From positions 1 through 64,000 of the forward strand of contig CAMAZF010000005.1 in assembly GCA_945862985.1 (NCBI GenBank): 64,000 bases of DNA. The letters run 5' to 3'. The translations under genes were made by a program, and so were the position numbers. Of this stretch, positions 13,751-22,166 are shown piece by piece (the stretch's first letter is position 1; each line of letters opens with the position of its first letter). The notes beneath the pieces were generated by a model. The model worked only from the letters and a program-made list of their open reading frames with translations. It did no database searches and was not told the DNA's origin. This DNA comes from Bordetella parapertussis (lineage in GTDB: Bacteria > Pseudomonadota > Gammaproteobacteria > Burkholderiales > Burkholderiaceae_A).

Positions 13751-14545
13751 ATGCCCCGCTTGTCTGCCAATCTGAGTTTTCTCTGGCCCCATCTCCCCTT
13801 GCTCGAGCGTTTCTCGGCGGCAAGTCGTGCCGGCTTTGACGCTGTCGAGTTGCTCTTTCCCTACGACCAGAGCCTGCCCGTGTTGGCCGAGCTGTTGGAT
13901 GGGCATGGGCTCCAGATGGTCTTGATCAACGCACCCTGCGGTGAATGGTCACGTGGGGAGCGAGGCTTTGCAGCCCAGCCGGGCGAGGAGGCCGCCTTTC
14001 GAGGGTCGATCGAGCAAGCCCTCACGGCAGCGGACGCGCTGGATGTTGGGTGTATTCATGTCATGTCTGGCCACTTACGGTCTCGAACGACGGATGCGAG
14101 TGAACTTCAGATGCAGGTCCTCTTGCGAAATCTTCAGTGGGCAGGGGATCAGGCCCGCGCTGCAGGTCGTCGAATCACCATCGAGCCGCTCAATGTGGTC
14201 GATATGCCCGGCTATTTTCTGTCCAGTCTGGATCAGGTGCTCGATGTGCTGCAGACGCTCAACCATGCGGCTGTGGGCTTGCAGTTCGATCTCTACCACC
14301 AGCAACGCAGCCGAGGCGAGATTCTTCTGAGCTTAGACCGGTCCAGATCTCGGCTCTTTCACATACAGGTTGCAGGGGCTCCTGATCGGCGTGAGCCAGA
14401 TCTGGGAGAGTTGAATGTTTCGCGTGTGTTTGCTCACATCGATCAGATGGGATACCAAGGGTTCATTGGCTGTGAGTACCGGCCTCTGCTGGATACCGAC
14501 TCGGGTTTGGCCTGGGCGAAGCCTTATTTGTCAGGAGCAATGTAA
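13751..14545 (+). CDS. Hydroxypyruvate isomerase-like TIM-barrel protein
   Basis: The 264-residue xylose-isomerase-like TIM barrel resembles hydroxypyruvate isomerase (Hyi) and 2-oxo-tetronate isomerase (OtnI). Visible features are the opening RLSANLSFLW and AGFDAVELLFPYD, then LINAPCGEWSRGERGFA, the likely metal/base segment TIEPLNVVDMPGYF, QFDLYHQQ, and a closing IGCEYRP. These match the Hyi family closely. It would interconvert hydroxypyruvate and tartronate semialdehyde or a related pair, but no glyoxylate-pathway partner is adjacent. The ATG at 13751 gives the family N terminus; an earlier in-frame start at 13706 is less likely. Its stop and the next start share one base (TAATG). Confidence 0.82.
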   Translation: MPRLSANLSFLWPHLPLLERFSAASRAGFDAVELLFPYDQSLPVLAELLDGHGLQMVLINAPCGEWSRGERGFAAQPGEEAAFRGSIEQALTAADALDVGCIHVMSGHLRSRTTDASELQMQVLLRNLQWAGDQARAAGRRITIEPLNVVDMPGYFLSSLDQVLDVLQTLNHAAVGLQFDLYHQQRSRGEILLSLDRSRSRLFHIQVAGAPDRREPDLGELNVSRVFAHIDQMGYQGFIGCEYRPLLDTDSGLAWAKPYLSGAM

Positions 14546-15129
14546 TGCAAACGATTTATTTGGGCGGTGGGTGTTTCTGGTGCATTGAAGCCGTCTTTCA
14601 ACGCATTCGAGGTGTGGTGGCCCTGACCTCGGGATACATGGGAGGGCAGGTTCCACATCCCAGCTATGAACAAGTCTGTGGGAAACAGACGGGTCACGCA
14701 GAGGTGGTGCGCGTGGAATTCGACGATCAGTCGCTCAGTCTGTCCGATCTATTTGCCGTCTTCTTTGAGGTTCACGATCCCACGAGCTTGAACCGCCAGG
14801 GCGATGATGTTGGGCCGCAGTACCGGTCCGCGATTTTTGCAACCACGGATGCGCAGCTGGAGGCCGCTCGCTCTGCCATGGATCATTGGAGGCAGACGCA
14901 CGAGGGCTCGGATCCCATCGTGACGGAACTGCATCGAGTGAGTCCTGAACAAGCCGCAGGCACGACTCAGGAGGTCGACAAGACCTTCTTTCCAGCAGAG
15001 GCTTATCACCAGAACTATTTCAACCAACACCCCCATCAGGGCTATTGTGCGGTCGTCGTCGCATCCAAGGTGGCCAAATCAGAGCGGGCGTTTGTGCGCC
15101 TCCAGGTCAAGGCGCCAGGCGATCAATGA
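14545..15129 (+). CDS. msrA: Peptide methionine (S)-S-oxide reductase
   Basis: Repairs methionine S-sulfoxide in proteins. It has 194 residues with the catalytic motif GCFWC at 9-13, then [28 protein letters not shown] and [11 protein letters not shown], and the C-terminal YHQNYF segment. No signal peptide is present, so it is cytoplasmic. It is coupled to the isomerase-like gene before it. Its last 23 bases overlap the convergent pdxH. Confidence 0.95.
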
Positions 15130-15748
15130 CCCATTGGTCTGACGACTCTGCCTGTCGGTAACGAACTCGGTCGTGAAGTCTTGATGGGCGTCCCTGCCAG
15201 AACTCGAAGCGATCGGGGCTGAGCAGGTACCCGCCCCAGTGGCTCGGTCTTGGGGCCGAATGGCCATACCGGGCTGCGTACGCGCGCTCTCGATCAGCGA
15301 GCCACTCCCGGCTGGGAATGACCTGGCTTTGGGGAGAGGCCCAGGCCCCGATTCGGCTGGACGCAGGTCGGGAGTCGAAGTAGGCATCTGAGGCCTCAGC
15401 AGATATAGGACTTACCCTACCCTCTATCCTCACTTGGCGTTCCAGCTCGGGCCAGAAAAAGCTCAGGCACGCCCAGGGATGGACCGAGAGTGCCAGTCCC
15501 TTGCTGGACTGGTAGTTGGTAAAAAAACGGAGTCCTTGCGCATCGAGGCCTCGAATCAGGACCACCCGGGAACTGGGGCGGCCATTGGGCTGCACCGTGG
15601 ACAGCGTCATGGCGTTGGGCTCGAGTGCGCCGGCCTTGAGGGCTTCGTCGAGCCATTGGGCAAGCTGCTGCCAGGGCTGAGGCGCAACATCTGCGGGGTC
15701 TAGGCTGCCCTGCATGTAATCCTTGCGGAGGTCGAGCGCTTCGGTCAT
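15107..15748 (-). CDS. pdxH: Pyridoxamine/pyridoxine 5'-phosphate oxidase
   Basis: FMN enzyme that oxidises pyridoxine or pyridoxamine 5'-phosphate to pyridoxal phosphate. It has 213 residues. Family segments are intact: [32 protein letters not shown], the FMN/PLP contacts around VRIEGRV, and the C-terminal [16 protein letters not shown] with RLHDRVRY. It is transcribed towards msrA. The 138 bases upstream separate it from the divergent rubrerythrin operon and hold a tandem repeat (separate entry). Confidence 0.95.
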
Positions 15749-15757
15749 AGAGATAGC

Positions 15758-15795
15758 CTATTGACGGGTTTCGAAATATCTATTGGACGGTTGTC
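15758..15795 (+). promoter_or_regulatory. Tandem imperfect direct repeat in the pdxH / rubrerythrin divergent region
   Basis: CTATTGACGGGTTTC (from 15758) and CTATTGGACGGTTGTC (from 15780) are two near-copies about 22 bases apart, roughly two helical turns. They lie between two divergent genes, which suits a regulator-binding site. No known box (Fur, OxyR, PerR) was recognised in it. The rest of this 138-base region shows the AGGAG ribosome site at 15876-15880 and nothing else that I can identify. Confidence 0.4.
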
Positions 15796-15886
15796 ATTTT
15801 GAACCTGCAGACTCCGCTGTGTGTCTTAGACGAACTTGATGATTGTCAAGACATGTTCGTTTTCATTCAACCCACAGGAGACTGTC

Positions 15887-16309
15887 ATGCCCCAACTTAC
15901 AGGAAGCAAGACGCACCAGCATCTGAAAGATGCTTTCGCAGGCGAGAGCCAGGCGAACCGTCGTTACCTCTATTTCGCAAACAAGGCCGACGTTGAAGGC
16001 TATCCCGAAGTCGCTGCGCTGTTCCGCTCCACCGCTGAGGGTGAGACCGGCCACGCACACGGTCACCTCGACTACCTGGCTCAGGTGGGCGACCCCGCAA
16101 CCGGCATGCCCATTGGCGACTCCGCGGCCAACCTCGCCTCTGCAGTTGCAGGCGAGACGCATGAGTACACCGACATGTATCCCGGCATGGCCAAGGATGC
16201 ACGCGACGAAGGCTTCGATGAGATTGCTGACTGGTTCGAGACGCTGGCGAAAGCAGAGCGCTCGCACGCCAACAAGTTCCAAAAGGCTTTGGATACCCTG
16301 AACGCCTAA
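15887..16309 (+). CDS. Rubrerythrin-family di-iron protein (no rubredoxin domain)
   Basis: The 140-residue ferritin-like protein carries repeated E-x-x-H di-iron motifs: [10 protein letters not shown] in the first half and [11 protein letters not shown] in the second, with [20 protein letters not shown] between. Rubrerythrins act as cytoplasmic peroxide reductases. This one stops after the four-helix domain and lacks the C-terminal rubredoxin-like zinc or iron site of classical rubrerythrin, so electrons must come from a partner. The ATG at 15887 is preceded by AGGAG. The next gene encodes an iron-sulfur protein, a possible partner. A 92-base gap to that gene holds no clear terminator. Confidence 0.88.
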
Positions 16310-16401
16310 GGCTTGCGCCTGAACTGCAGGGCCTTTCACAAGAGGGCTCTGCGATGCATGCGCTACCCCGCTGCCCCTCAACATAAAAAACAGGAGAACC
16401 C

Positions 16402-17763
16402 ATGAGTGCACGTGAAGGCTCACTCGAGGCCCCGACCAGACACCCTCTCGATTGGAAGAACCCCGAGTTCTACAACGAGGAGGCTTGCTTCTCCGAGATG
16501 GAGCGCATTTTCGACATCTGTCACGGGTGTCGGCGCTGTGTGAGTCTCTGTGGCTCTTTCCCAACCTTGTTCGATCTGATCGACGAGGGCGAGACAGGAG
16601 AGATGGACGGCGTGCCCAAGGAAAAGTACTGGAGCGTGGTCGACCAGTGCTATCTCTGTGATGTCTGTTACCTCACGAAATGCCCCTACGTGCCCCCTCA
16701 TCCCTGGAATCTTGATTTTCCGCACACGATGCTTCGGGCCAAGGCGATTCAGTTCAAGAAGGGCACCGAGACGCAGTTCCGCGACAAGACGCTCTCGAAT
16801 ACCGTGGCCAACGGAAAGCTGGCATCCATTCCAGTTGTGGTTCAGGCCGTGAATGCGCTCTCTAAAAATAAGTCTGCTCGCGCCCTTGGAGAGAAGGTCC
16901 TGGGCGTGCACAAGGACGCCTGGCTTCCTGAATTCACTTCAAAAGTCTTTGAGCGTCATGCGGAAAAGGCCAAGGGCTGGCCCGTCAAGGATGGGGGTCG
17001 TTCAAAGGGGAAGGTCGCCATTTACTCCACGTGTTATGTGAACTGGAATGAGCCTGGCATTGGGCACGACCTCATCAAAGTGCTCCAGCACAACGAAATT
17101 CCCTACGTGGTGGTGGAGAAGCAGGCCTGTTGTGGCATGCCGAAGCTTGAGCTCGGCGATCTGGACTCGGTTGCCGCATTGGCTCAAGAGAATCTGCCCA
17201 AGCTGGCTCAGCTGGCCCGCGAGGGCTATTCCATCATGACGCCCATTCCTTCTTGCACCCTCATGTTCAAGCAGGAGCTACCGCTCATGTTCCCCAACGA
17301 CGCCGATGCGCAGGCGGTGAAAGCGGCCATGGTGGATCCATTTGAGTACTTCCAGCTGCGCCACAAAGATGGCCTCTTGAAGACGGACTTTAAGCAGGGT
17401 CTCGGCAACGTTTCTTATCACATCGCCTGCCACCTTCGAGTGCAGAACGTCGGGCAAAAGACCCGCGAGACGCTGGAGATGATCCCGAACACCGCCGTGA
17501 ACACGGTGGAGCGTTGCTCTGGTCATGCTGGAACCTGGGGGGTCAAGAAAGAGTTTCACGAGATGGCCATGAAGATTGGACGTCCGGTGGTACGTCAGAT
17601 GTCTGAACACTCGAAGGCGCAAGACGGAGCTGGAGGGCTTCCTGACTTCGTCGCATCGGATTGTCAATTGGCAGGCCATCACATTGAACAAGGGATGGCG
17701 GGCAAGGCCGACGGAAAGGTTGAGCATCCACTGAGCCTTTTGGCCCGAGCCTACGGTCTTTAA
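16402..17763 (+). CDS. Iron-sulfur oxidoreductase with CCG (HdrD/GlpC-like) domains
   Basis: The protein has 453 residues. Two four-cysteine clusters near the N terminus (C40, C43, C46, C50 and C83, C86, C89, C94) should hold two [4Fe-4S] centres. Two CCG-type domains follow, seen as EKQACCGMPKLELGD, a CHLRVQNVG segment and ERCSGHAGTWG, as in heterodisulfide reductase subunit D and GlpC. No membrane segment is evident. Neighbours are a rubrerythrin upstream and a DUF3501 protein 18 bases downstream. An electron-transfer role feeding the rubrerythrin is plausible but inferred; no dedicated flavoprotein partner is adjacent. Confidence 0.87.
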   Translation: MSAREGSLEAPTRHPLDWKNPEFYNEEACFSEMERIFDICHGCRRCVSLCGSFPTLFDLIDEGETGEMDGVPKEKYWSVVDQCYLCDVCYLTKCPYVPPHPWNLDFPHTMLRAKAIQFKKGTETQFRDKTLSNTVANGKLASIPVVVQAVNALSKNKSARALGEKVLGVHKDAWLPEFTSKVFERHAEKAKGWPVKDGGRSKGKVAIYSTCYVNWNEPGIGHDLIKVLQHNEIPYVVVEKQACCGMPKLELGDLDSVAALAQENLPKLAQLAREGYSIMTPIPSCTLMFKQELPLMFPNDADAQAVKAAMVDPFEYFQLRHKDGLLKTDFKQGLGNVSYHIACHLRVQNVGQKTRETLEMIPNTAVNTVERCSGHAGTWGVKKEFHEMAMKIGRPVVRQMSEHSKAQDGAGGLPDFVASDCQLAGHHIEQGMAGKADGKVEHPLSLLARAYGL

Positions 17764-17781
17764 TTTGAACGCACGAGAAGG

Positions 17782-18375
17782 ATGAACACCATGCCGCATA
17801 TTCAACGTGACGCGCTCTGGACGCTGGAGCACTACTCTCGCATTCGGAATCAGTTTCGTTCAGAGGTGATGGAGCACAAAAGAAGCCGACGTCTCGCCCT
17901 TGGTGAGCACATCACTCTGATGTTCGAAGACGAGAAAACCATTCGGTATCAGATCCAAGAGATGCTGCGCATCGAGAAGACCTTCGAAGAGGAAGGGATT
18001 CAGGATGAGCTCGATGCATACAACCCGCTCATCCCGGATGGCCGTAATTTCAAGGCGACCATGATGATTGAGTATCCCGATCCCGAGGTTCGCAAGGTCG
18101 AGCTGCGTAAGCTCAAAGGCGTGGAGGATCGCGTCTGGGTTCAAGTGGAAGGACGCGAGAAGGTGTACGCCATTGCAGATGAGGATCTCCAGCGCGAAAA
18201 CGAAGAGAAGACCTCTTCAGTTCACTTTCTGCGTTTTGAGCTCGACGAAGACATGGCGGCTGCCCTCAAATACGGCGTCGCCCTGGCTGCAGGGGTGTCG
18301 CATCCGGAGTACACCGTGGTGCTGGACCCTGTGCCAGTCGATGTGCGGACAAGCCTGGCGCAGGACCTTGCCTAA
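17782..18375 (+). CDS. DUF3501 family protein
   Basis: The 197-residue protein is of unknown function and probably soluble. Recognisable family segments are YSRIRNQFRSEVMEHKRSRR, LGEHITLMFEDEKTIRYQIQEM and ALKYGVALAAGVSHPEY. It is rich in charged residues and has no cysteine pattern or signal peptide. A GAAGGA ribosome site precedes the ATG; a second ATG 9 bases on is possible. The gene follows the CCG-domain protein closely and is followed after 3 bases by DUF2237, so its job is probably tied to the same redox operon. No catalytic motif can be named. Confidence 0.85.
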   Translation: MNTMPHIQRDALWTLEHYSRIRNQFRSEVMEHKRSRRLALGEHITLMFEDEKTIRYQIQEMLRIEKTFEEEGIQDELDAYNPLIPDGRNFKATMMIEYPDPEVRKVELRKLKGVEDRVWVQVEGREKVYAIADEDLQRENEEKTSSVHFLRFELDEDMAAALKYGVALAAGVSHPEYTVVLDPVPVDVRTSLAQDLA

Positions 18376-18378
18376 GCC

Positions 18379-18765
18379 ATGAGTCAGCGTGCTGCAGGGG
18401 GTGCGCTCAACGTCCTGGGAACCGAGCTCCAGCCTTGCAGTCTCGACCCTCTTACTGGGTTTTTTCGAGACGGGTGCTGCAACACCAGTGATGACGACTA
18501 TGGGCGCCACACGGTCTGTGCCGTCATGACCCAGCCATTTCTGCAATTTTCATTGGAGAGAGGAAATGACCTGGTGACCCCCAGACCGGAGTTCCGGTTT
18601 CCGGGCCTCAAGGCGGGGGATCACTGGTGTCTCTGTGCGGGACGTTGGAGAGAGGCTGCCGAGGCGGGAGTGGCTCCACCGGTCGTCTTGGAGGCCACTC
18701 ATCGCAGGACATTAGAAGTCGTCGCGTTAGCTGATTTGGAATATCACGCCCTACGGATTGATTAG
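18379..18765 (+). CDS. DUF2237 family protein
   Basis: The 128-residue conserved protein of unknown function has the family opening LNVLGTELQPCSLDPLTGFF, then DGCCNTSDDDYGRHTVCAVMT and LKAGDHWCLCAGRW. Conserved cysteines at 20, 33, 34 and 47 plus the WCLC pair suggest metal binding or thiol chemistry. It begins 3 bases after the DUF3501 gene, so it is almost certainly cotranscribed with it. A 74-base gap follows before the next transporter operon. Confidence 0.87.
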   Translation: MSQRAAGGALNVLGTELQPCSLDPLTGFFRDGCCNTSDDDYGRHTVCAVMTQPFLQFSLERGNDLVTPRPEFRFPGLKAGDHWCLCAGRWREAAEAGVAPPVVLEATHRRTLEVVALADLEYHALRID

Positions 18766-18839
18766 TTCAGGTATATCCCTATTTAGTCTCCCCGCCCGAG
18801 CAGATACGGTGTGTTCATTATTCTGCAAGGAGACTCCCC

Positions 18840-19817
18840 ATGAAAGCCATTCGTACCCTGGTTGCTGCAGGCGCTTTAATCGCATGCTCTGCTGCCCATG
18901 CAGCAGTCGATCTCACCGTTACCCACTTCGGAACCGGCATGTACGGAGTGCCTTTTGCGGTGGCCAAGGCCAAGGGCTGGTTCAAGTCCGAAGCGAATCT
19001 TGATGTAGGCGGTTTTATTACCTCCAAAGGAGGCGGTACGACGGTGCGTAACGCACTGGCCGCGGACCTGCCCTACGGTGAGGTTGCGCTCTCTGCTGCC
19101 ATTGTGGCGATTCAGCAGGGTGCCGAGATCACCATCATTCACTCTGGTGTGATTTCTGTGGCTGATCAGATGTGGTCGACTCGCAAAGACGACACCAGCA
19201 TCAAAACCTATGCCGATCTGAAAGGAAAGGTTCTGGGCTACTCCAGCCCGCGTTCCGTCACCGACATGATCACCACCATCATGCTCAACGACAATGGCTT
19301 GACCGACAAAGTCACGCGTAAGTCGGTGGGTGGCGTGGGCGCTGGCGTTGTGGCGTTGCGTGAGGGCGGGGTCGATATGACCTACATGACCGAGCCAGTG
19401 TGGAGCAAAGAGAAGGACAACTTCCGAGGCGTCTGGCGTTCGTCTGACATTGCGCCCAAGGTCACACAGACCGTGGGAATCGTGAAGACGAGCTTCCTGA
19501 AAGCCAACCCCAAGGTGGTTGAGGGCATCATCAACGCCCGCCGCAAGGGCGTTCAGTTCATCCGCCAGAACCCTGATGAAGCAGCCAAGATCATGGCGGT
19601 GGAGTACAAGATCACTCCCGAGAATGCGGCCTCTGCCATCAAGAACGTGCTCTCCGTGAAAAATGGTTATTGGAGCGAGGGCGGCTTTGATTATGAGGGG
19701 ATGGAGACGCTCCTGAAGGGTCTGCGTCTCGTCAAAGCCATCCCTGAGGGAGAGTTCGACTGGACGAAGGTTGTCACGGAGTCGGCCCTTCCTGCTGACC
19801 TACGCACCAAGAAGTAA
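18840..19817 (+). CDS. NitT/TauT-type ABC transporter substrate-binding protein
   Basis: Periplasmic binding protein of the NMT1/THI5/SsuA-like family, 325 residues. Residues 1-21 form a signal peptide (VAAGALIACSAAHA-A). The mature chain has the family order FGTGMYGVPFAVAKAKGWF, NALAADLPYGEVAL and YADLKGKVLGYSSPRSVTDM. An AAGGAG ribosome site precedes the ATG. It is the first gene of a seven-gene operon; the ATPase start shares one base with its stop (TAATG). The ligand is unknown; the downstream enzymes suggest an organic acid rather than nitrate or taurine. Confidence 0.88.
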   Translation: MKAIRTLVAAGALIACSAAHAAVDLTVTHFGTGMYGVPFAVAKAKGWFKSEANLDVGGFITSKGGGTTVRNALAADLPYGEVALSAAIVAIQQGAEITIIHSGVISVADQMWSTRKDDTSIKTYADLKGKVLGYSSPRSVTDMITTIMLNDNGLTDKVTRKSVGGVGAGVVALREGGVDMTYMTEPVWSKEKDNFRGVWRSSDIAPKVTQTVGIVKTSFLKANPKVVEGIINARRKGVQFIRQNPDEAAKIMAVEYKITPENAASAIKNVLSVKNGYWSEGGFDYEGMETLLKGLRLVKAIPEGEFDWTKVVTESALPADLRTKK

Positions 19818-20635
19818 TGACCACTCAAGGGTTGCACGCTGACTCGGGTCACGTTGTCTTCGATGGCGTGACCAAGCGATTTCCCGGGCGAGACGGCCGC
19901 CCGGAGGTTCATGCCCTTGGGCCGGTTTCTTTCTCTCTCAGCCAAGGAGAGTTTTTCTCCGTCGTGGGTCCGTCTGGGTGTGGGAAGTCGACCCTCCTCG
20001 ATGTCATGGCGGGTCTATCTGCGCCCTCGGAGGGCACCGCTTTTTTTGAAGGCCAACCCTTGAAGGGTTCGGTCCCAGATGGCGTGGGGGTCGTATTTCA
20101 GGAAGACTCCTCGTTCCCTTGGCTCAATGTCACGGAGAACGTCAGTTTTCACCTTCGTCAGATGGGGATGGATGAGGCAGAGATACGAGCGCGTGCTGAG
20201 CACGCCATTGGCTTTATGGGCCTCTCGGCATTCTCCAAAGCCTATCCGGCAGAGCTCTCGGGGGGCATGCGACAGCGGGTCTGCATCGCGCGGACGCTGG
20301 TCACCCGTCCTCGGCTCATTCTTCTCGACGAACCCTTTGGAGCGCTCGACCAGCAGACGCGCCTGCTGATGGGTGATGAGCTCCTGCGCTTGTGGCGTGA
20401 GACGGGCGCCACCATTCTGTTGATTACTCACGCGCTCGATGAAGCAAGCATGCTCTCCGATCGAATCGGTGTGATGAGTGCTCGACCTGGGCGGTTTATT
20501 GACTTGGTGGAGACGCACTGGCCGCAAGATCGCACCAGTGAGATCGTCTCCGATCGACGATTTGGTGAAATCACGGGCCGGATCTGGCAGCACCTCCGGG
20601 CCGAATCGATGACCGCCATGGGAGCACAGGTTTAG
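19817..20635 (+). CDS. NitT/TauT-type ABC transporter ATP-binding protein
   Basis: ATPase subunit of 272 residues with Walker A GPSGCGKST at 51-59, the signature LSGGMRQ at 147-153 and Walker B ending in DEP at 171-173, followed by FGALDQQTR and the switch region TILLITHALDEA. It resembles SsuB/TauB-type ATPases. It is coupled by one-base overlaps to the binding-protein gene before it and to the first permease after it, so the transporter subunits are made together. Confidence 0.92.
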   Translation: MTTQGLHADSGHVVFDGVTKRFPGRDGRPEVHALGPVSFSLSQGEFFSVVGPSGCGKSTLLDVMAGLSAPSEGTAFFEGQPLKGSVPDGVGVVFQEDSSFPWLNVTENVSFHLRQMGMDEAEIRARAEHAIGFMGLSAFSKAYPAELSGGMRQRVCIARTLVTRPRLILLDEPFGALDQQTRLLMGDELLRLWRETGATILLITHALDEASMLSDRIGVMSARPGRFIDLVETHWPQDRTSEIVSDRRFGEITGRIWQHLRAESMTAMGAQV

Positions 20636-21387
20636 TGGGACTGGTCGCGAGAATTCGCTGGGCCGTGGTGTTGAGTTTCTTGCTCTTTCTGGAGGTTATC
20701 TGCCGGCTCGGCTGGGTGGATGGCATTTCGCTCTCCCCTCCCACCCAGATTTTCATGACCGTGCTCTCCATCCTGGGGACTGCCGAGTTTTATCGCGATG
20801 CGGGCCTGACGTTTTCGACGGTGGCGGGGTCTATTTTGGCAGCCGTGTTTTTTGGCTTTCTCATGGGCCTGGGGCTCCACCGATTTCCACTGGTTCGTCG
20901 GTTCCTGGATCCATTTCTCGCGAGCTACTACAGCATTCCCACCTTCGTGTTTTATCCATTCTTCATCGTCTTGTTCGGACTGAATCGGTTCCCACTGATG
21001 GCGATTGGATTTATTTTTGCGGTGGTGGCCATGGCCATCAACACGCTCTCTGGCCTGCAACGGGTGCCGCGCGTGCTGTTGCGGTCGGCCCGCGTGATGC
21101 GCCTGTCTCGCTGGCAGACCATTCGGAAGGTGATCATGCCCTCCGCAGCGCCATTCCTCTTCACGGGCCTCAAGCTCTCCATCGTTTATTCATTCATTGG
21201 CGTGATCGCTGGGGAGTTCATTCTCAGTGGGGCTGGGCTCGGCTTTCAGATTGCCTTTTCATACAACGCCTTTGAGACCAGCAAGATGTACGGACTCATG
21301 GCCATTCTTCTGACGGTGGTGGGCAGCATCAACCTATATATCTACGCCATAGAACGCCGCATTTATTCCCGGCGAGGGGGACGCTGA
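20635..21387 (+). CDS. NitT/TauT-type ABC transporter permease 1
   Basis: Inner-membrane permease of the BPD_transp_1 family, 250 residues and about six membrane helices, with the EAA-like loop SARVMRLSRWQTIRKVIMPSA after residue 140. It begins with GTG, whose first base is the last base of the ATPase stop, so start choice is set by coupling. It pairs with the second permease directly downstream, giving a heterodimeric channel; many NitT/TauT systems use one permease as a homodimer. Confidence 0.9.
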   Translation: MGLVARIRWAVVLSFLLFLEVICRLGWVDGISLSPPTQIFMTVLSILGTAEFYRDAGLTFSTVAGSILAAVFFGFLMGLGLHRFPLVRRFLDPFLASYYSIPTFVFYPFFIVLFGLNRFPLMAIGFIFAVVAMAINTLSGLQRVPRVLLRSARVMRLSRWQTIRKVIMPSAAPFLFTGLKLSIVYSFIGVIAGEFILSGAGLGFQIAFSYNAFETSKMYGLMAILLTVVGSINLYIYAIERRIYSRRGGR

Positions 21388-22166
21388 TGTCTGGGTCTGG
21401 TCAGACGATTCAGACCGAGGCCTCTCTTCCGGCGTGGGCCTTTGCTCTCTTCATTCTGGCGCTTGGACTCGCATGGCTCGCGGGGTCTGCCTTGGTTGGG
21501 TCTGAGGTGCTCCCCGGCCCCATCGAGACCTTCGATCGTCTGTGGGTCATGCTCAGCACGGAGCGTTTCGAGCAGCACGCCTGGGAGACGTTTCGGGCGT
21601 TCATCATGGCCCTGGTGATTGCCGTGTTGCTGGGAGTGGTGCTGGGTGTCACTCTGGGTGCACATCGACTCTCGGGGGACGTGGCTGAGCCCATGCTGGT
21701 TGCGCTCTATTCCATTCCGAAGGTCACGCTCTATCCGATCATCTTGCTGCTCTTTGGTTTGGGCCTCTCAGCGAAGGTGGCCTTTGGCGTGATCCACGGG
21801 ATCATTCCCATCTGCATCTTCACCATGGCCGCTGTGCGGGCTGTGCCGCGTCGGTATGTCCGCGCGGCTCAAGCCATGCGTCTGAGCCCACGAGAGATGT
21901 TCTGGAAAATCTACCTCCCCGCCTGTATCCCTGAGGTGTTCAGCGGACTGCGGGTAGGATTTTCACTCACCTTGCTCGGGACCATCATTGGAGAGATGTT
22001 TGCCTCTCAACGAGGCATTGGCCACCTGTTGCACCAGGCCATGGAGAACAACAATCTCTTGGATATCACCGCCATGGTGTTGCTCTTGGTGACGCTCGCT
22101 GCATCCGTTGGTTTCGCCCTGCTCAGCATCGATCGACGGCTTGCAGCGCGAAGCCCCTCCGCCTGA
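21387..22166 (+). CDS. NitT/TauT-type ABC transporter permease 2
   Basis: Second permease, 259 residues, with a hydrophobic N-terminal segment, five to six membrane helices and the loop AAQAMRLSPREMFWKIYLPAC that contacts the ATPase. It starts one base into the stop of permease 1. The next gene, a lyase of the isocitrate lyase superfamily, begins 30 bases later with a GGGAGA ribosome site and no visible terminator between, so transport and enzyme genes probably form one transcript. Confidence 0.9.
   Translation: MSGSGQTIQTEASLPAWAFALFILALGLAWLAGSALVGSEVLPGPIETFDRLWVMLSTERFEQHAWETFRAFIMALVIAVLLGVVLGVTLGAHRLSGDVAEPMLVALYSIPKVTLYPIILLLFGLGLSAKVAFGVIHGIIPICIFTMAAVRAVPRRYVRAAQAMRLSPREMFWKIYLPACIPEVFSGLRVGFSLTLLGTIIGEMFASQRGIGHLLHQAMENNNLLDITAMVLLLVTLAASVGFALLSIDRRLAARSPSA

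Follow-up and report, generated by a model that had tools for sequence, protein, structure and literature searches.

The window, a 64,000-nucleotide stretch of contig 5 (CAMAZF010000005.1) of a 2.17-Mb, 60-contig genome of Bordetella parapertussis (G000), carries four neighboring genes encoding a rubrerythrin (RBR), a CCG-domain protein (RFO), DUF3501 and DUF2237. With a probability of roughly 70 percent, we read them as a rubrerythrin operon of the aerobic type, with the three parts already published, that is followed by a lineage-specific passenger, DUF2237, and is most likely OxyR-controlled in the family of the window (f1; 26 genomes of 1.1-2.3 Mb, many of them incomplete). Cardenas et al. 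described the RBR-RFO-DUF3501 trio as the aerobic-type rubrerythrin cluster in 2016 (PMC5114695), and it recurs in Andalucia mitochondria (PMC7050145) as well as in Acidihalobacter (PMC7760498). What the present analysis adds is a ligand pattern for RFO as well as a predicted two-switch control of the trio; together these offer handles for testing that are new relative to the published comparative work surveyed, namely named operators, a candidate repressor and candidate cluster ligands.

Gene content and conservation of the operon

All four open reading frames (ORFs) are located on the + strand in the order RBR, RFO, DUF3501 and DUF2237. ORF coordinates and Pfam matches confirmed the positions, the order and the 3-base distance between DUF3501 and DUF2237 given in a preliminary description of this DNA:

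15887..16309, + strand, RBR, aerobic-type rubrerythrin of 140 amino acids without a rubredoxin domain (Pfam and PDB matches)
16402..17763, + strand, RFO, CCG-domain protein of 453 amino acids (Pfam, NCBIfam, cysteine pattern)
17782..18375, + strand, DUF3501, 197 amino acids, no cysteine (Pfam, PDB 3fjv)
18379..18765, + strand, DUF2237, probable passenger of 128 amino acids, separable, beginning 3 bases past the DUF3501 stop

All four proteins scored far over the Pfam cut-off of their family, with E-values of 2.9e-29 for Rubrerythrin, 7.9e-12 for CCG, 1.7e-73 for DUF3501 (PF12007, 247.1 bits vs. a gathering score of 25) and 2.1e-55 for DUF2237 (PF09996, 186.1 bits vs. a gathering score of 25). 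RBR and RFO are separated by 92 bases, which is not a tight gap, and the two terminator-like matches in 15600-18900 (shuffle mean 2.6) both lie within genes. A single transcript across the four genes is plausible, with the inclusion of DUF2237 suggested by its position only.

The window shares with the cluster of Cardenas et al. the same three families, a one-domain RBR, the adjacency of the genes and a proteobacterial host, and differs from it by the presence of DUF2237 behind the trio; the main text of that paper holds no mention of regulation, a promoter, OxyR or DUF2237 (PMC5114695). The link between rubrerythrin and DUF3501 that the preliminary description had mentioned is supported and had already been published (PMC5114695, PMC7050145, PMC7852563, PMC7760498). 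Among the 80 best-scoring named DUF3501 loci (out of at least 576), the full set of RBR, RFO and DUF3501 was present in 68. Eight of the 12 loci without the full trio end at a contig end, while RFO was not seen in L176, L193 and L215 and RBR was not seen in L220. The conserved association in relatives that had been expected for all four genes therefore applies widely to the three-gene set, and to the four-gene set inside f1 only.

Linkage and separability of DUF2237

DUF2237 had been proposed as a fourth working part of one redox or repair module, and its position in f1 is in line with this proposal. DUF3501 was found in 17 and DUF2237 in 19 of the f1 genomes, and according to the listed coordinates DUF2237 lies directly behind DUF3501 in all 17 DUF3501-bearing genomes from three genera, even where the block appears inverted or moved relative to msrA. 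Together with the 3-base spacing and five cysteines of DUF2237 (Cys 20, 34, 47, 84 and 86) that were invariant in 23 rows, this is the case for a four-gene module, which we nevertheless regard as quite unlikely in view of four observations on relatives and other loci. The first concerns the following neighbors of the operon:

15107..15748, - strand, pdxH, divergent neighbor that adjoins DUF2237 where the trio is missing
14545..15129, + strand, msrA, syntenic neighbor in f1

In two genomes of the genus of the window, the trio is missing from between pdxH and DUF2237, which form a head-to-head pair with a spacer of 66 bases in G002 and 61 bases in G007. DUF3501 had no match at all in these genomes, whose completeness is 84 and 83, respectively. 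Loss of the trio would be the simpler reading here, as three genera of f1 carry it.

Second, adjacency was confined to f1 in the samples searched. An order sample of 200 genomes contained DUF3501 in 100, DUF2237 in 86 and both in 50 genomes, a weak co-occurrence (Fisher p 0.06, ignoring descent); the two genes were adjacent in five of these 50, all of them f1 members, and in none of the 45 outside f1. In five of the latter they share a contig at a distance of more than 0.5 Mb, and in 40 they are on different contigs, with a few of these cases at contig ends, where the genes may adjoin across a gap. A phylum sample of 397 genomes contained DUF2237 in 68 and DUF3501 in 34 (33 over the cut-off), and among the 10 genomes with DUF2237 and an over-cut-off DUF3501 the genes were adjacent in the genome of the window only. 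Similarly, DUF2237 adjoined DUF3501 in one of the 80 named loci (L148, an f1 member), and in L181 it was found 6.7 kb from DUF3501 on the opposite strand.

Third, a CNP1-like cluster gene (one member checked by Pfam) with its start within 150 bases fills the fourth slot in 21 of the 80 named loci, and the slot is thus not specific to DUF2237. Fourth, in all of 52 other DUF2237 loci (L066-L117), the flanking 1.5 kb on either side were free of trio genes. No common partner was apparent among the 25 largest neighbor clusters shown for these 52 loci; the largest one beside DUF2237 itself seems to consist of reading frames that overlap, and six loci share a trpB-like gene (by eye). The fold search matched DUF2237 to its own three solved structures only (E < 0.001), so that the fold yields no function. 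With its linkage confined to f1 in the samples searched and the trio separable from it, DUF2237 was rejected as a conserved partner of the trio and is most likely a lineage-specific passenger. This takes it off the likely parts of a peroxide defense, on which DUF3501 and RFO stay.

Two arrangements of DUF2237 loci were observed in addition. In L233, L234 and L235 (G003, G006 and G005) the operon together with DUF2237 is oriented differently relative to msrA, which would fit an inversion or relocation of the block, with RBR of L234 past the contig end. A tandem pair of DUF2237 genes is present in L102 (G558:C11).

RBR and its predicted electron donor

Pfam matched RBR to Rubrerythrin and Ferritin only, and a rubredoxin-like domain was not detected, in agreement with the preliminary description. 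The di-iron-type residues E20, E53, H56, E90, E93, E124 and H127, which we take to be the di-iron ligands, were kept in 70 of 70 RBR rows. RBR matched the structures PDB 4di0/9onm (E about 7e-71) and sulerythrin 1j30 (1e-53), the rubrerythrin of 4di0 originating from B. pseudomallei (PMC5114695). The substrate reduced to water at the di-iron site would be hydrogen peroxide, perhaps along with organic peroxides. Lacking a rubredoxin domain, RBR must obtain its electrons from an external source. Ferriperoxin (Fpx) of Hydrogenobacter thermophilus, like RBR of the window a one-domain rubrerythrin, functions as a peroxidase and is required for aerobic growth (PMC3317640); unlike in the window, the RFO gene of this species is located apart (PMC5114695).

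RFO, previously described as a two-cluster CCG protein, kept its CCG assignment, while its cluster content had to be refined to two ferredoxin-type four-cysteine motifs (C40/43/46/50 and C83/86/89/94) and two CCG-type domains, only the first of which is scored by Pfam. All eight ferredoxin-type cysteines were kept in 114 of 114 distinct RFO rows. Closer inspection of the same rows revealed that CCG domain 1 contains C211, C243, C244 and C285, with Met288 replacing the fifth cysteine in all 114, and that CCG domain 2 has cysteines only at C343, C372 and C421. Position 373 is occupied by Ser (100 rows) or Ala (14 rows) and position 424 by Ala (105 rows), Gly (eight rows) or Ser (one row), while His344 and His375 are invariant. 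Neither domain carries the five-cysteine set of the HdrB/HdrD-type CCG catalytic subunit.

The best named NCBIfam match of RFO was GlpC, under both cut-offs (217.3 vs. 278 and 148.1 vs. 279.9 bits). The two proteins share their domain order and a first CCG domain without the fifth cysteine. In the second CCG domain, however, E. coli GlpC (L246) has five cysteines and RFO three, with Cys, Cys and Ile of GlpC in the places of Ser/Ala 373, Ala/Gly/Ser 424 and His375. A second CCG domain without two cysteines that GlpC keeps and with an invariant histidine is the new feature of RFO. No glpA or glpB was present among the window neighbors scanned with Pfam and NCBIfam, which differs from the GlpC setting. 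We found no description of a ligand set of three cysteines and one histidine for CCG proteins in the literature surveyed. In EtfD, a threonine in place of one such cysteine accompanies a linear [3Fe-4S] cluster, and a histidine completes the other, non-catalytic cluster (PMC13083937).

These substitutions bear on the possibility that RFO is a heterodisulfide-reductase-like thiol enzyme which RBR merely protects. We take the displaceable bridging cysteine of HdrB to be the last cysteine of the CxxC pair. Both RFO domains are without this last cysteine (Met288 and Ala/Gly/Ser 424), and the second one is also without a cysteine of the CC pair (Ser/Ala 373), which makes a thiol enzyme highly improbable even though the RFO part of a modeled fusion protein (see below) matched structures of LutA, EtfD and HdrB. 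In HdrB the bridging cysteine coordinates the catalytic iron (PMC13083937). RFO is thus better seen as a probable electron carrier than as a disulfide reductase; with its two ferredoxin-type motifs and two reduced CCG sites it would deliver electrons to RBR. This supports the CCG protein as the likely donor, a role suggested by the preliminary description and published before (PMC5114695).

DUF3501 as a probable docking partner

No conserved cysteine was present in 27 aligned DUF3501 rows, and the protein of the window is without any. It matched the structure PDB 3fjv (E 3.4e-62). Natural RFO-DUF3501 fusions of 656-665 amino acids, a type reported previously (PMC5114695), were found in four Nitrosomonas metagenome-assembled genomes (L206, L211, L218 and L219). 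A model of the fusion protein reached a predicted local distance difference test (pLDDT) value of 80 and a predicted template modeling (pTM) score of 0.64, with the linker 445-467 below a pLDDT of 50, and 3fjv was the sole match of its DUF3501 part at E < 0.001. Given that none of its redox residues is conserved and that some species carry it as a fusion with RFO, DUF3501 most likely has a docking or assembly role and would act as a non-redox partner of RFO and RBR.

Predicted OxyR control in the family of the window

Upstream of RBR two candidate control elements were apparent:

15747..15783, no strand assigned, OxyR-type site ATAG-N7-CTAT-N7-tttc-N7-CTAT, touching the pdxH start, best score in the window
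15783..15788, + strand, -35-like TTGGAC, read by eye from the family upstream alignment; its partner -10 is weak in the window

Scored against the E. coli OxyR consensus ATAGnTnnnAnCTAT-N7-ATAGnTnnnAnCTAT (PMC10580950), the site reached 14/20, with 12 as the next best score in the 64-kb window. Eleven other f1 upstream regions scored 11 to 13, and the two trio-less ones, which are short (66 and 61 bases), scored 7 and 8. The f1 alignment revealed a conserved palindrome followed by TTGGAC upstream of RBR. Its form ATTGAT-N7-ATCAAT was exact in seven of 12 f1 upstream regions (shuffles 0.0), and in seven of 10 f1 genomes tested the sole exact genomic copy was the one at RBR (places matched to RBR loci by hand). 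GATAG-N5-CTATC, considered as a motif, exhibited no excess. All 17 f1 genomes tested, including trio-less ones, encode an OxyR homologue that is 38-42 percent identical to the E. coli protein, and oxyR has been noted beside the trio in Sideroxydans in a metagenome study (PMC7852563). Activation by OxyR is most likely for the f1 operon, which would be switched on via the site at 15747-15783.

Several observations weigh against the overall picture of an OxyR-controlled trio with RFO as donor and DUF2237 as passenger. Apart from the constant position of DUF2237 behind DUF3501 in f1 described above, the OxyR-type site of the window is without one of its four quarter-sites, and the exact palindrome is absent from the genome of the window (G000) and from G020, while the only copy in G025 is located elsewhere. 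A consensus scan revealed no sigma-70-like promoter in 15600-18900 or before RBR, and the TTGGAC element was not among its results. Fpx of Hydrogenobacter draws its electrons from NADPH via FNR without RFO (PMC3317640), and RFO is therefore not the sole possible donor. Thermoproteales carry RBR and DUF3501 without RFO (PMC5114695), and no enzyme assay for RFO or DUF3501 was found in the literature surveyed.

A candidate Irr-type switch outside the family

A different pattern was observed among 68 loci outside f1. The exact motif TTAGA-N5-TCTAA, found de novo, occurred upstream of RBR in 26 of them (shuffles 0.0) and, at nine or more of its 10 letters, in 33, while the f1 locus L148 was without it. 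In the alignment of 29 rows, about 11 bases separate the motif from the end of a preceding TATACTT-like heptamer, a spacing that is predicted to correspond to the placement of a repressor site. OxyR-type sites (at least 14/20) were found in 12 of the 35 non-f1 loci without this operator (expected 0.25) and in none of the 33 operator loci (expected 0.35), leaving 23 of the 68 loci with neither. The strict form TTAGAYTNARTCTAA was present in six of 10 genomes, once each and at the RBR locus (placed by hand), and was missing from the other four. With one mismatch allowed, 14 genomes contained 24 sites vs. eight for the reversed pattern, and single extra sites are therefore near noise. In G607, one of the one-mismatch sites precedes a Fur-family gene by 22 bases. 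Others were observed between ftsH and rlmE in four genomes of the Thiobacillus loci (L290-L295: G605, G606, G598 and G604) as well as before folE2 in G605 and G606 (one copy each of ftsH, rlmE and folE2 checked by Pfam, the others by eye).

The Fur-family protein of G607 has an HHH motif (HxH type), and its best NCBIfam match was IrrA/Irr, under the cut-off (120.6 of 150 and 111 of 170 bits). Strong Irr-like orthologues (> 100 bits) were present in 19 of 25 operator genomes vs. one of 25 without the operator (Fisher p 1.9e-7, ignoring descent). The search covered 25 genomes of each kind, out of 33 with the operator and 35 without it; the 19 positives include the query genome G607, and some matches cross a stop codon. 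None of four f1 genomes tested contained such an orthologue. Mapped onto the RFO tree, the operator label of 31 rows requires nine changes, at least four of them forced by supported branches, and the descent-aware test of operator against Irr-like gene comprised only four supported pairs, with a mean of 3.0 concordant and 0.2 discordant and a median p of 0.25. Thirteen of the 20 strong Irr-like genes had at least eight of 10 operator letters within 200 bases upstream and seven did not; for four of these 13 sites the plain letter-shuffle chance was 0.04 to 0.09.

In Alphaproteobacteria, Irr controls mbfA via the Irr-box (ICE) (PMC3413700, PMC7762939). Common to both settings are an HxH Fur-family regulator and an operator over a rubrerythrin-like gene, whereas the operator described here precedes the RBR-RFO-DUF3501 operon of Beta- and Gammaproteobacteria. 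No report of Irr control of this operon was found in the open-licence literature. The operator in 33 of the 68 loci, its company with an Irr-like gene and the ferritin-like nature of RBR in Pfam could also indicate that the trio handles iron or haem, with RBR as a ferroxidase or iron sink that RFO reduces for iron release, and in rhizobia iron storage (bfr) is under repression by Irr when iron is limiting (PMC7762939). This function appears rather unlikely given the OxyR-type sites in the window and in 12 of the 35 operator-less loci, the peroxidase activity of Fpx (PMC3317640) and the oxidative stress defense in which mbfA and ccpA, the two Rhodobacter genes with an Irr-box, are said to act (PMC3413700).

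For the trio as a peroxide defense, we give about even odds to a combined proposal in which Beta- and Gammaproteobacteria have connected it to two sensors that are unrelated, with OxyR-type activation on the one hand and repression by a self-regulated Irr-like, haem-type Fur-family protein via TTAGAYTNARTCTAA on the other, and in which C343, C372, C421 and H375 would bind a cluster or metal in the second CCG domain of RFO. If true, the repression via TTAGAYTNARTCTAA would extend the Irr-rubrerythrin circuit beyond Alphaproteobacteria, and cells with the same peroxide enzyme set would have placed it under a peroxide sensor in some lineages and an iron/haem sensor in others, a clean case for regulatory turnover.

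Neighboring genes and viral relatives

An ABC transporter set at 18840-22166 starts 75 bases behind DUF2237 and comprises an NMT1/SsuA-like binding protein (Pfam) as well as an ATPase and two permeases (by eye). The binding protein had no match in the loci of five relatives and was not matched in more than one of 21 loci compared; other genes follow there in both cases.

Relatives of DUF2237 were also present on viral contigs of IMG/VR (L247-L264), those of L253-L255 measuring 274-291 kb. Among 11 viral proteins read, four (L250, L253, L256 and L258) carry a C-terminal extension with a tail of the EKCW.GYTQKGMKTMFGK.YPNCVK type.

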